NCBI GenBank assembly: GCA_947472885.1
Contig: CANJBX010000004.1
Coordinates: 1 to 64,000, forward strand
Length of the DNA stretch: 64,000 nucleotides
Direction: 5' to 3'
Origin: Hyphomicrobiaceae bacterium
GTDB taxonomy: Bacteria > Pseudomonadota > Alphaproteobacteria > Rhizobiales > Xanthobacteraceae
The notes below the pieces were generated by a model, which did not search any database, was not told the origin of the DNA, and saw only the letters and a list, made by a program, of their open reading frames with translations. Within the stretch, counting starts at the first letter, position 1. Each line of letters opens with the position of its first letter. Shown here piece after piece: positions 5,005 to 57,101 of this stretch. A program made the position numbers and the translations under genes.

Positions 5005-5811
5005 TCAGCGCGGTGGCACGACGTGGACAATCTTGTAGCCGCCGGCTTTGAGCGCGCGCAGCAGGCCCGGCAGCATCTCGGCGGTCTGCTGTTTGGTGTC
5101 GTGCAGCAGCAAGATGCCGCCGTTGCTGTGGCGGAGCCGCGCCATCACCAGTTCAAGCTGCTCCTGCGGCCGCATTGGATTCCAGTCGCCCGCCCATTCG
5201 TCGGCGCCAAACACCACGATCTTGCGCGCCGCGAGCCGCTCCAGCAGTTCCGGCGACGACACAAATCCCGGAAACCGGAAGAACGGCGTGCGCGGCTCGG
5301 CACCGGCCTTGCCGTAGAGCGCGATGTCGTCGGCGGCGAAGCCGCGGTTGATATCGGCCATCGCCCGGTCGGGCTTTATGTGACCGAGCAGGGGGTGATT
5401 ATAGGAGTGATGGGCGACGGTGTGGCCCTCGGCCAGTTCGCGTCTGGCCAGCGCCGGCGATTTCACCGCCATGCGGCCCAGCAGAAAAAACGTCGCTCGG
5501 ACGCATTCGGACTTGAGCGTATCGAGGATGCGTCCGGTGGTGCCGGGCAACGGACCATCGTCGAACGTCAGCGCGACTTCCTTGGGCCGGAGCGGCAGCG
5601 TGGTCGGGAAATGCTTGCGGCCCACACGCGGCGTCGAACTGTCCACGGTCAGGATGCGCGCGGTGCCGAGCGCATCGGGGCGTCCCGCGCAATCTGCGCC
5701 CGTGGCTGTCGCGGCACTGACATTCCACAGTGACATCACACCGGCGAGCGCAATCACGCCCTTGAACCCTCGCCGGGTTTGCCACGTTGAAAAGCCGAGC
5801 GTACAAGCCAT
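5005..5811 (-). CDS. polysaccharide deacetylase (NodB/CE4 family), exported
   Basis: 268-aa CE4-type deacetylase with a hydrophobic N-terminal segment (about residues 18-36), probably a signal peptide. Catalytic motifs are visible: motif 1 TFDDGP near residue 82, motif 2 HSYNHP near 134, motif 3 with PFFRFPGF near 172, and the C-terminal LLLHD. These enzymes remove N- or O-acetyl groups from chitooligosaccharides, peptidoglycan or exopolysaccharide. The substrate cannot be told from sequence. The gene diverges from mgtE with only 58 bp between starts. A second, longer CE4 protein lies at 45978-47144. Confidence 0.88.
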   Translation of the reverse strand: MACTLGFSTWQTRRGFKGVIALAGVMSLWNVSAATATGADCAGRPDALGTARILTVDSSTPRVGRKHFPTTLPLRPKEVALTFDDGPLPGTTGRILDTLKSECVRATFFLLGRMAVKSPALARRELAEGHTVAHHSYNHPLLGHIKPDRAMADINRGFAADDIALYGKAGAEPRTPFFRFPGFVSSPELLERLAARKIVVFGADEWAGDWNPMRPQEQLELVMARLRHSNGGILLLHDTKQQTAEMLPGLLRALKAGGYKIVHVVPPR

Positions 5812-5869
5812 GACGAACTATCTTTCGAACTATCCATTTTCAGTCGCGCAAGTGGAACCGTGATCCGGC

Positions 5870-7285
5870 ATGGCCGACCCGCAAGACATGACCGTCGTAA
5901 CGCCAGACCCCGCTGCCGTCGAGTTACGCGACGCCGCCGGCGCCATTAGTCCTGAATATGTTGAACGGGTGGTTGAGGCCATCTACGCGTCCGACGCCGC
6001 GACCCTGCGCGACCTTGTCGGCGACCTGCATGAGGCCGACAGCGGCGACCTGATCGAGGCACTCGACCCGGAAGACCGCCCGCGTCTCGTGACGCTGATG
6101 GGCGCCGACTTCGACTTCACGGCGCTGACCGAAGTCGACGATACGGTGCGCGAGGACATTCTCGAGGAATTATCGACCTCGACCGTGGCCGAGGGCGTCC
6201 GTGACCTCGATAGCGACGATGCCGTCCGCATTCTCGAGGACCTGCCCAAGGACGAGCAGGACGAAATCCTCGACCAGCTGCCGGCCTCCGAGCGCGTCGC
6301 GCTGGCCCGCAGCCTCGATTACCCGGAAGCGTCCGCCGGCCGGCGCATGCAGGACGAGGTCATCGCCGTTCCGCCGGCCTGGACCGTCGGCCACGCCATC
6401 GACTACCTGCGCGAGACGGCGGAACTGCCGGATCGCTTTTACGAAATCTATGTCGTCGATCCGGACCGCAAGCTCCTCGGCGCCGTCGCGCTCGACAAGC
6501 TGCTGCGCACCAATCGCCCGGTTTCGGTCTCCGAACTGATGGACGAGGATTTCCGCCGCGTCCACGCCGACGACGACCAGGAGGAAGTGGCGCGCATGTT
6601 CGAGCGCTACAATCTGATCGCGGTGCCGGTGGTGGACGACGACGACCGGCTGGTCGGCATGATCACGTTCGACGACATCGTCGATGTCATCGAGGAAGAG
6701 GCCGAAGAAGACATCAAGGCGCTCGGCGGTGTGGCCCGTGAGGAAGAACTTTCCGATACGGTGTGGACGATTACGCGCGGCCGCTTCAACTGGCTGCTGG
6801 TCAATCTCGGGACCGCGTTCCTGGCGTCCTCCGTGCTTGGCGCGTTCGAGGGTGAATTGCAGAAGATGGTCGCTCTCGCGGTGCTGGCGCCGATTGTCGC
6901 CAGTCAGGGCGGTAATGCGGCGACCCAGACCATGACCGTGGCCGTGCGCGCGCTCGCCACCCGCGAACTGAACGACTCCAACGCGATGCGCGTGATCGTG
7001 CGCGAATTGCTGGTCGGCCTGCTGAATGGAATTGCGTTCGCCGTCATCACCGGCGTCGCGGCCTATGCGTGGTTCCGCGTGCCGGACCTCGGCATCGTCA
7101 TCGCGCTGGCGATGTTGTGTAACCTGGTCGCAGCGGCGCTCGGCGGCATTCTCATTCCGCTGATCCTGCACCGCCTGAAGGCCGATCCGGCGGTGTCGTC
7201 CGGGGTGTTCGTCACGACGATCACCGATGTGGTCGGGTTCTTCTCGTTCCTCGGCATTGCGTCCCTGTGGTTCGGCTTCAAATAG
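5870..7285 (+). CDS. mgtE: magnesium transporter MgtE
   Basis: 471 aa, with the canonical MgtE layout. A helical MgtE_N domain (about 35-140) is followed by a CBS pair (about 145-265) ending IAVPVVDDDDRLVGMITFDD, then a plug helix and five predicted membrane helices (about 295-470). The pore region contains the conserved GGNAATQTMTV. MgtE is a Mg2+-selective channel whose cytosolic N and CBS domains close it when Mg2+ is plentiful. The many acidic residues in the N domain fit the Mg2+-sensing role. ATG 5870 lies 58 bp from the divergent deacetylase start. I see no M-box-like leader in so short a space. Confidence 0.95.
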   Translation: MADPQDMTVVTPDPAAVELRDAAGAISPEYVERVVEAIYASDAATLRDLVGDLHEADSGDLIEALDPEDRPRLVTLMGADFDFTALTEVDDTVREDILEELSTSTVAEGVRDLDSDDAVRILEDLPKDEQDEILDQLPASERVALARSLDYPEASAGRRMQDEVIAVPPAWTVGHAIDYLRETAELPDRFYEIYVVDPDRKLLGAVALDKLLRTNRPVSVSELMDEDFRRVHADDDQEEVARMFERYNLIAVPVVDDDDRLVGMITFDDIVDVIEEEAEEDIKALGGVAREEELSDTVWTITRGRFNWLLVNLGTAFLASSVLGAFEGELQKMVALAVLAPIVASQGGNAATQTMTVAVRALATRELNDSNAMRVIVRELLVGLLNGIAFAVITGVAAYAWFRVPDLGIVIALAMLCNLVAAALGGILIPLILHRLKADPAVSSGVFVTTITDVVGFFSFLGIASLWFGFK

Positions 7286-55335: not shown

Positions 55336-55590
55336 CTATTTTATCTTTGCGTCGTAATCGGCGTGTGAGCCGATCCAGAACCACAGCATGCCGCCGTCGG
55401 TTTCAACCGCCAGCGCGCGATAGCGGATGCCGACGCGGACGGACCAGAAGCGCCCGACTTTCTTGAAATGCAGGGAAGGGTGCTGCGGATCGCTTTTGAG
55501 CAGCGCAAAATTCTTGTCGGCCAATGCGCGGATGGGGTCGGGAAGGCGTTGATAGGCAGCCCAGAAATCAGGACTGGCAAAATGCCTCAT
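55336..55590 (-). CDS. type II toxin, RelE/ParE superfamily
   Basis: 84-aa toxin. Typical RelE/ParE features: helix-turn SPDFWAAYQRLPDPIRALAD, then HPSLHFKKVGRFWSVRVGIR and YRALAVETDGGMLWFWIGSH. The RVGIRYRAL strand and C-terminal His are the usual active-site area. It either cleaves mRNA on ribosomes or inhibits gyrase; which cannot be told. ATG 55590 overlaps the antitoxin stop by 4 bp (ATGA). Confidence 0.85.
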   Translation of the reverse strand: MRHFASPDFWAAYQRLPDPIRALADKNFALLKSDPQHPSLHFKKVGRFWSVRVGIRYRALAVETDGGMLWFWIGSHADYDAKIK

Positions 55591-55787
55591 AGCTCGCGGG
55601 CGCGTCCGGCTCTGTGGTCGGCCAGCGCGTGATCGGCCAATGCGTCGAGCTTGCCGCCGGCAGCATCGCGCTCAATCTTGCGGTCGAAGCGGTCTGCGTC
55701 AAACGCATCGAACCACGTCCGGAACCGCGCAAACTCGGCGGCCGGCAAACTCTCGATGGCTTTCTCAATGTCTTCGACGGTGCTCAT
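55587..55787 (-). CDS. antitoxin partner of the RelE/ParE-type toxin
   Basis: 66 aa from ATG 55787 (MSTVEDIEKAIESLPAAEFA). Two helices with RFRTWFDAFDADRFDRKIER and an Ala/Asp/His-rich tail. It is the usual type of short helical antitoxin for RelE/ParE toxins, probably lacking a clear DNA-binding domain of its own. Translationally coupled to the toxin. A possible promoter TTCGCA-N17-TATATT ends about 10 bp upstream of the start. Confidence 0.78.
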   Translation of the reverse strand: MSTVEDIEKAIESLPAAEFARFRTWFDAFDADRFDRKIERDAAGGKLDALADHALADHRAGRAREL

Positions 55788-55906
55788 GGGGGAAATATAA
55801 CGGGAAAGCGGCAAATTGCGAAAGGCCCTAAGGTAGCGGAGCCCATGCTGCGGAATTACGCCCGAAATGGTGGATCAATAATTCTTTCTAGCAATTAAGC
55901 CGGGCC

Positions 55907-55960
55907 TTGCAAACGTCCATATTGGACACTATGATGTCCAAAGTGGACGTCGTGATGTCC
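55907..55960 (+). promoter_or_regulatory. ParA promoter built from 21-bp repeats with inverted repeats
   Basis: A sigma70-type promoter TTGCAA (55907-55912), 17-bp spacer, TATGAT (55930-55935). Inverted repeat GTCCA-TAT-TGGAC (55915-55927) fills the spacer. A second, GTCCA-AAG-TGGAC (55936-55948), directly follows the -10. A third half site GTCC lies at 55957. The starts 55915, 55936 and 55957 are exactly 21 bp apart, and each full unit ends TGAT. This looks like a multi-site operator on one face of the DNA. Confidence 0.8.
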
Positions 55961-55970
55961 TTTTGAGGAG

Positions 55971-57020
55971 GTGGTCCGTAAGCTATGGGAGAGATGTCTT
56001 GGAAAAAAATATGCTTTTTGGAACAACAAAGGCGGCACTGGCAAAACTAGCTTAGCGTTTCAAGCCATCACGCTTTACGCGCAGAAAAATCCAAAGAAAC
56101 GCATACTTGCTGTCGATGTTTGTCCGCAGGCCAATTTGTCTGAGTTGCTGCTCGGTGGATTGAACAACAAGGGCAGTGATAAACTTCTTGCGCAGCAGGG
56201 ACTTGTTCCGCGGTGTAGCATAGGTGGCTATTTTCAACTTCGATTGCCATCGCCCTATGTCGCACCAGCATTTAATTCTTCCGACTTCATTACCAAGCCA
56301 AACGCCTCGAACAAAAGTATCCCCGCGAACATTGACTTAGTGTGTGGTGATCGGTTGTTGGAACTCCAAGCAAACGCGGTGAATACGTTGGCAAACAACC
56401 AGATTCCAGGGTCAAATCCTTGGATATCTGTCGTTGATTGGCTTGCTTACTTTTTGGAAAAGATTGAAGACGACTACGATACCGTTTTTATGGACTGTAA
56501 TCCGAGTTTTTCACTTTATACGCAGATCGCGCTTGCCGCGTGCGATCGCATTGTATTGCCCGTTATGGCGGATGACTCGTCACGCCGGGCAATTCAAAAT
56601 GCCTTCTCTTTGGTCTACGGACTTAAACTTCCTTCAGAAATATACGCCGCGTATGCGTTTGCTACCAAGCTGAAGGCTGCAGGACGATCACTTCCCAAAG
56701 TTCATCTGATTGTGAAAAACCGTCTCACGCAATACATGGGCGCGGCGTCAGCGTATGCTGCGGTGTTGGATGCCATCGAGAAGGACGTCGGCAAACTCCT
56801 GAAGTCAAATCCAGAAATCTTCAACTTTAAGAATATTAACAAGGGATTTGTTGAGATCCGCGATTTTCAGACGACTGGTTTTGTTGCATTTGCAAAGGGG
56901 CTTCCGTTTTCGCAAGTACAAGTCGGGAAGCAAACCATCAACGGGCACAGGGTTCAGGTTAAAAAAGAATATTTGGTCAACGCCAATGCCGCCATGGACG
57001 GTCTGGTGGCCTCTCTATAA
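55971..57020 (+). CDS. orphan ParA-like ATPase
   Basis: 349 aa. Deviant Walker A NNKGGTGKTSLAFQ begins near residue 19, with signature Lys; DVCPQANLSELLLGG follows as the A' motif; YDTVFMDCNPSF is Walker B. The length and long C-terminal part resemble stand-alone ParA/MinD-type proteins rather than Soj/ParA partition pairs. No ParB is next to it. GC is about 48% in a sampled 60 bp, so it is probably acquired. Start uncertain: GTG 55971 is in frame but overlaps the GAGGAGG ribosome-binding site; ATG 55985/55994 is better placed but one base out of frame across an A7 run (55993-56009 region). Confidence 0.82.
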   Translation: MVRKLWERCLGKKYAFWNNKGGTGKTSLAFQAITLYAQKNPKKRILAVDVCPQANLSELLLGGLNNKGSDKLLAQQGLVPRCSIGGYFQLRLPSPYVAPAFNSSDFITKPNASNKSIPANIDLVCGDRLLELQANAVNTLANNQIPGSNPWISVVDWLAYFLEKIEDDYDTVFMDCNPSFSLYTQIALAACDRIVLPVMADDSSRRAIQNAFSLVYGLKLPSEIYAAYAFATKLKAAGRSLPKVHLIVKNRLTQYMGAASAYAAVLDAIEKDVGKLLKSNPEIFNFKNINKGFVEIRDFQTTGFVAFAKGLPFSQVQVGKQTINGHRVQVKKEYLVNANAAMDGLVASL

Positions 57021-57044: not shown

Positions 57045-57084
57045 TTGCCAGCGGATGCAGATCAAGCCATGCGTCCGCTGGCAA
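57045..57084. repeat. 15-bp inverted repeat after the ParA gene
   Basis: Stem TTGCCAGCGGATGCA / TGCGTCCGCTGGCAA (57045-57059 and 57070-57084) with one G-T mismatch and a 10-nt loop. It lies between the convergent ParA-like and nrdJ genes. No T-run follows, so it may be a terminator or an element boundary. Confidence 0.7.
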
Positions 57085-57101
57085 TTGCTAGTCTCCGCGC
57101 G

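Follow-up and report, generated by a model that had tools for sequence, protein, structure and literature searches.

Genetic organization of the locus

The window considered here is a 64,000-nucleotide stretch of a contig from a Hyphomicrobiaceae bacterium. It contains a lone gene for a ParA-like ATPase, preceded by a short array of inverted repeats (Table 1). The array comprises two perfect GTCCAnnnTGGAC boxes and one half site, the starts of which are exactly 21 bp apart (55915, 55936, and 55957). It overlaps a sigma-70-like promoter, TTGCAA-N17-TATGAT, detected by a consensus scan at positions 55907-55935. The original prediction had proposed inverted-repeat boxes and a half site at 21-bp steps, as well as this promoter, with one box in its spacer and a second one after its -10 hexamer; both are borne out by the sequence and by the scan. 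Between about 55.8 and 57.0 kb, the GC content is 46-48%, vs 60-65% in the flanks.

Table 1. Positions of the features of the ParA locus within the window.
Feature	Position	Strand	Remarks
-35-like hexamer TTGCAA	55907..55912	+	Consensus scan; homologous hexamers in most of 24 loci
Operator box 1, GTCCATATTGGAC	55915..55927	+	Lies in the -35/-10 spacer
-10-like hexamer TATGAT	55930..55935	+	Linker separating box 1 from box 2
Operator box 2, GTCCAAAGTGGAC	55936..55948	+	Directly downstream of the -10
Third half site GTCC	55957..55960	+	Same 21-bp register
Lone ParA-like ATPase ORF	55971..57020	+	1,050 bp; 349 aa from GTG; conserved 338 aa from 56004
A7 run	56003..56009	+	Meeting point of the ParA frame with that of ATG 55985; possible site of a frame lesion or of slippage
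Deviant Walker A motif KGGTGKT	56028..56048	+	Residues 9-15 of the conserved part; sequence and alignment
C-terminal beta-hairpin codons, residues 308-319	56925..56960	+	Candidate operator-reading element (model, class-separating residues)
15-bp inverted repeat	57045..57084	.	Probable transcription end

The self-similarity at lag 21 of the sequence located 5' of the gene was equaled by none of 100 shuffles at any lag and by none of 200 at lag 21 itself. Moreover, none of 300 shuffles matched the phased box pair. By contrast, single boxes are at chance level. In the 3.88-Mb genome, the exact box occurs three times, vs two for a reversed control, and at two mismatches it is not enriched in the window (27 occurrences vs 22 expected). 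Thus, the phased pair is the unusual feature. Even in degenerate form, this pair was found in a single one of 398 genomes of the phylum, that of the host. Two of the three exact genomic boxes are those of the window pair. As to whether repeats also occur in the genome without ParA, there is therefore one further box, which is located inside a 496-aa ORF; because of this position within a coding sequence, it was rejected as a second regulon member.

The start of the gene is unusual. In the homologues, the N-terminus consists of a methionine, zero to six residues and then KYAFWNNKGGTGKT. In the window, the sole in-frame start codon is GTG 55971, which abuts a Shine-Dalgarno-like GAGGAG motif, whereas ATG 55985, better placed with respect to this motif, is in a different frame. 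The odd start may correspond to a real lesion, to a slippage site or to a sequencing error, and translation of the window allele may be impaired.

A toxin-antitoxin-like pair (55336-55814, minus strand) lies just upstream of the ParA gene and comprises an 84-aa ParE-like protein (PF24732) and a 75-aa partner. The gene is also flanked by a 9-bp inverted pair, CTAGCAATT/AATTGCTAG (55888-55896 and 57083-57091), at chance level; as no other such pair was found, a transposon or terminal inverted repeats surrounding the gene were rejected. The window contains no tRNA that could serve as an attachment site.

The encoded ATPase

The protein matches the Pfam AAA_31 family (E-value 1.1e-19) and the PHROG 164 profile, annotated as "ParA-like partition protein" (E-value 2.6e-36). 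Its score against RepA-type plasmid partitioning ATPases (TIGR03453) is 42 bits, far below the cut-off of 348 for this equivalog, and no family of the PADLOC defence library was matched. An AlphaFold2 model (pLDDT 89) displays one ParA domain followed by a C-terminal beta-hairpin (residues 308-319), with no added DNA-binding domain and no N-terminal HTH; nor was a toxic or nuclease domain found in the protein. The nearest solved folds identified by Foldseek are those of DIP2308, McdA, and Soj (14-18% identity). Together with the KGGTGKT motif, the Foldseek matches to Soj, McdA, and ParA place the protein among ParA/Soj Walker-type ATPases, in agreement with the identity first proposed for it. 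The roles of McdA, Soj, and DIP2308, however, differ.

A 338-residue part, almost fixed in length, is conserved among homologues at about 55-90% identity. Comparison with the homologue from a Rhodopseudomonas MAG (L002; loci are designated by L numbers) gives 90% identity, with dN of 0.06 and dS of about 1.45. This low dN with respect to dS (dN/dS about 0.04) points to strong purifying selection on the family.

Conservation and diversification of the array

In homologues, the 140 bp upstream of the gene were scored for a pair of boxes spaced by 21 bp, with shuffles as a control. A 21-bp-phased array was found at 24 loci with p ≤0.007 (nearly all were matched by none of 300 shuffles, three being at p ≤0.007). 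Two homologues found later, L132 (80% identity) and L133 (61%), were scored afterward as a blind test; both have the array (0 of 500 shuffles), one box of L133 being changed to GTTCAAAACGAAC. Hence, the 21-bp repeats are indeed kept upstream of these ParA homologues. Across loci, one box occupies the -35/-10 spacer and the next one lies just past the -10. In most of the 24 loci, the -35 hexamer begins 8 bp (7-9) before box 1, and the mean promoter score of the loci is 8.25, vs 6.19 in shuffles (shuffle maximum, 6.75). Linker positions 16-21 of the first repeat unit are conserved as a -10 hexamer, whereas the linker of the second unit is not. The conservation of the boxes is partly circular, since these positions were picked by the score, but promoter positions played no part in the picking. 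A third copy in the same register is visible in L002, L007, L004, L005, L116, and others.

The array is also diversified. At L039, a different palindrome (CGTAA...TTACG) is repeated at 22 bp, and enterobacterial phages carry GGTTAACGATGTCACC...GGTAAAC...GTTTACC arrays with periods of 52-53 bp. In the clade formed by L036, L037, and L038, one GTCCATAATGGAC box is followed by 9-bp iterons, numbering 69, 9-10, and 3-4, respectively. In L036, the roughly 69 GTCCACGAT-like iterons form a 666-bp array (5310-5975) between the promoter box and the ParA homologue, an arrangement suggestive of either a centromere or an enlarged operator. Both L036 and L037 have their 9-bp repeats in frame; a coding function was nevertheless rejected because those of L038 are out of frame and contain a stop. 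About 300 bp upstream, L037 also carries a stretch with GGTAAA/TTTACC and GTGACATCG-like sequences (2300-2735) that resembles the enterobacterial class of arrays. Upstream of relatives at 35-39% identity, no clear array was seen; the operator is thus not universal.

The array and its geometry as an operator can be considered established. As the array is conserved along with the gene, is tied to the promoter and varies with the ParA clade, it gives good support to the autoregulatory operator initially proposed, and autoregulation of the ParA gene is likely.

Distribution, mobility and neighborhood

Close homologues (60-90% identity) are sporadic. At an E-value ≤1e-30, five other genomes among 385 of the class have one, and in another family of the order they were found in 3 of 298 genomes. 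The nrdJ site of nine relatives of the host shows no ParA homology. Carriers include Alpha-, Beta-, and Gammaproteobacteria, Acidobacteriota, Poribacteria, a Parcubacteria MAG, an actinobacterial plasmid, and phages, although some of the MAG assignments may reflect binning errors. An identical ParA unit of about 1.95 kb is present in chromosome 2 of P. xenovorans and in plasmid pBN2 of P. aromaticivorans, within unrelated surroundings, which indicates that the gene moves. In pBN2, the unit is interrupted by an insertion carrying a transposase gene. The ends of the identical unit are sharp in both the chromosomal and the plasmid-borne copy (L006, 5601-7668, and L043, 5669-9548). In L006, the unit is located between 49-bp inverted repeats (94% identical), and in L043 it is near a 21-bp direct repeat (90%).

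Conjugative plasmids are among the carriers. In the P2-like elements L012 and L035, the ParA gene and a DNA methylase stand beside the portal gene Q, in the cos-proximal region that has been described as a hotspot of anti-phage systems (PMC9122126). In lambdoid phages, including those with relatives at 30-38% identity, the gene comes right after cI. Relatives at about 35% identity are found on 3-5-kb plasmids, one of which is typed ColRNAI; high-copy ColE1-like plasmids should need no partition. Four plasmids of 3.3-8.5 kb from Klebsiella, Enterobacter, and Acinetobacter (L065, L066, L067, and L068) carry lone ParA genes (34-36% identity) with a KGGVGKS motif. Two 5.9-kb plasmids of Salmonella Infantis, L041 (CP148862, 5872 bp) and L063 (OR850760), appear to derive by reduction from a lambdoid phage-like contig as a replicon in which ParA and the array were kept beside a different cI-cro region.

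No ParB-type gene adjoins the window gene, as the original prediction had stated. An all-against-all comparison of ORFs of at least 30 aa within 6 kb, over about 33 loci, revealed no conserved neighbor, which supports the suggestion of an orphan or self-contained module. A small partner gene that had been missed was rejected on the same grounds, as the comparison gave nothing but a MobF relaxase, in four loci, and frames that overlap the ParA gene. Hence, the locus has neither the adjacent ParB-type partner of ParABS systems nor a ParG- or omega-type partner as in ParFGH systems.

Which protein reads the operator?

On a maximum-likelihood tree of ParA, each operator class (GTCC and GGTTAAC) requires one change, vs about 14 in shuffles, and the corresponding branches are supported at 100/99, although near-copies among the loci make this linkage look stronger than it really is. 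Residues that separate the classes include 309, 310, 311, 314, and 315, in the beta-hairpin, and 56-66, among other sites. Phage S.Inf 5-2 of Salmonella and a 5.9-kb plasmid share a ParA and array block with 95.5% identity, whereas the adjoining cI region differs. Since the cI region was swapped while ParA and the array were kept, the array goes with ParA rather than with CI. An operator for the phage CI repressor was therefore rejected; the cI-cro intergenic region is, moreover, devoid of these boxes.

Because the ParA clade and the class of operator change together, and because no other gene accompanies ParA, ParA is the likeliest binder. Judging from these sequence comparisons, direct binding of ParA to the array is moderately likely. 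For ParA family proteins devoid of an HTH, the DNA binding on record is mainly non-specific. It may be proposed that this ParA reads a specific and fast-diversifying operator or iteron array through its C-terminal beta-hairpin, and thereby combines an ATPase, a repressor and possibly a centromere-binder in a one-gene weapon of phages and plasmids against, or substitute for, ParB-based partition. This extended proposal is rather unlikely as a whole. If ParA is both a DNA reader and an ATPase, it would unite roles that are kept apart in the characterized HTH-less ParA partition systems.

Comparison with known systems

We know of no phased operator for parI, the gene of the orphan ParA to which the window protein can be likened by description. 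As reported in two studies, ParI (PP_3700) is encoded on a genomic island of Pseudomonas putida KT2440 (PMC9178275, PMC8544851), it destabilizes IncP-7 plasmids in a manner that requires its ATPase (PMC9178275), and parI is induced by plasmid entry (PMC8544851). Both proteins are lone ParA-type ATPases, encoded without ParB by a gene of about 1.1 kb (PMC7324555) on an accessory island or element. The Walker A motif of ParI is, however, KGGVGKS (PMC9178275), as in some of the relatives at 35% identity, whereas that of the window protein is KGGTGKT.

Operator-like sites overlapping its own promoter are a trait that the window gene shares with type Ia systems, in which ParA proteins such as P1 ParA and F SopA autorepress by binding operators at their own promoter (PMC9178275). 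These proteins use an N-terminal HTH together with ParB and parS, all of which are lacking for the window ParA; the homologues start zero to six residues before KYAFWNNKGG, which leaves no N-terminal HTH. In the type Ib systems ParFGH of TP228 and delta-omega of pSM19035, arrays of short repeats that cover the par promoter can act as both operator and centromere. Their arrays are bound by a small RHH protein from an adjacent gene, whereas no such protein is encoded at the window locus. Finally, phage phi297 encodes a member of the same family, PHROG 164, whose gene adjoins cI, but this ParA is about 38% identical and has no visible array.

Possible role and alternative explanations

Taken together, the data are, in our view, best explained by a mobile module of one gene, in which an autorepressing orphan ParA/Soj-type ATPase with its own operator takes part in ParI-like competition between mobile elements; we favor this reading tentatively, with somewhat less than even confidence. 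The boxes, two helical turns apart on one face of the DNA, cover the promoter, and a protein bound to the box in the spacer and to the box over the start region would block RNA polymerase. ParA sitting on its own operator would thus autorepress. When a plasmid or phage-plasmid enters, ParA would also contact its ParB-parS complex and disturb its partition, as was reported for ParI by Miyakoshi in 2012. ParA leaving the operator could then raise expression. Among the several candidate functions, the ParI-like role appears to be the best. Orphan ParAs are common and few have an assigned function. The present family brings a built-in readout, namely a co-diversifying operator, which makes both the binder and ParB-independent ParA action directly testable. 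In addition, the positions at phage exclusion sites hint at a possibly unrecognized means of competition between mobile elements.

Alternatively, ParA could bind the array as a centromere and segregate its replicon without ParB, as a one-protein par locus. The iterons lying between the promoter box and the gene in the L036-L038 clade, and the presence of ParA on plasmids, including the 5.9-kb plasmid reduced from a phage, are consistent with such self-contained partition. Nevertheless, most arrays consist merely of two or three boxes placed exactly over the promoter, and ParA is also found in integrated P2-like prophages and in chromosomes, which need no partition, while distant relatives reside on 3-5-kb plasmids, one of them ColRNAI-typed. 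ParA-only partition is, to our knowledge, not an established mechanism, and we regard this alternative as improbable. Since neither a high-copy plasmid nor an integrated prophage depends on partition, competition fits better. The idea that the repeats are centromeric iterons for a partner protein is weaker than that of an autoregulatory operator: it is compatible with the 69-iteron, centromere-like array of one clade, but no partner is encoded in cis and many carriers are prophages or chromosomes. Equally improbable, in our judgment, is an anti-phage or superinfection-exclusion protein that targets phage DNA or replication rather than partition. Its location in the P2 cos-Q hotspot (PMC9122126) and right after cI would suit such a function; the missing PADLOC match, the lack of a toxic or nuclease domain and the existence of plasmid carriers speak against it. 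The "defence-like" character suggested at the outset is plausible from the phage exclusion sites and from the orphan ParI, but it finds no counterpart in the defence library.

The operator might also be bound by an unlinked regulator, encoded by the host or by the element, ParA being a passive target gene. This is unlikely, though somewhat less so than the two preceding alternatives. The absence from ParA of an HTH or of any recognized sequence-specific DNA-binding domain argues for it, as do GTCCAnnnTGGAC boxes in a few phages without ParA in the examined stretch (L072 and L076). In these phages, 4 and 10 GTCCAnnnTGGAC-like boxes occur at L072:3729-4175 and L076:7262-14162, respectively, vs 0.6 and 0.9 expected, and possibly form the operator of another regulator. 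On the other hand, the array accompanies ParA across many phyla and replicons despite changing hosts and neighbors, and 397 of the 398 genomes of the phylum lack the box pair. The least probable explanation is that the window gene is a decaying relic in the host genome with no present function. It would account for the GTG start abutting GAGGAG, with ATG 55985 out of frame at the A7 run, but the 338-aa frame is intact, its divergence from L002 bears the mark of purifying selection, and the boxes are perfect.
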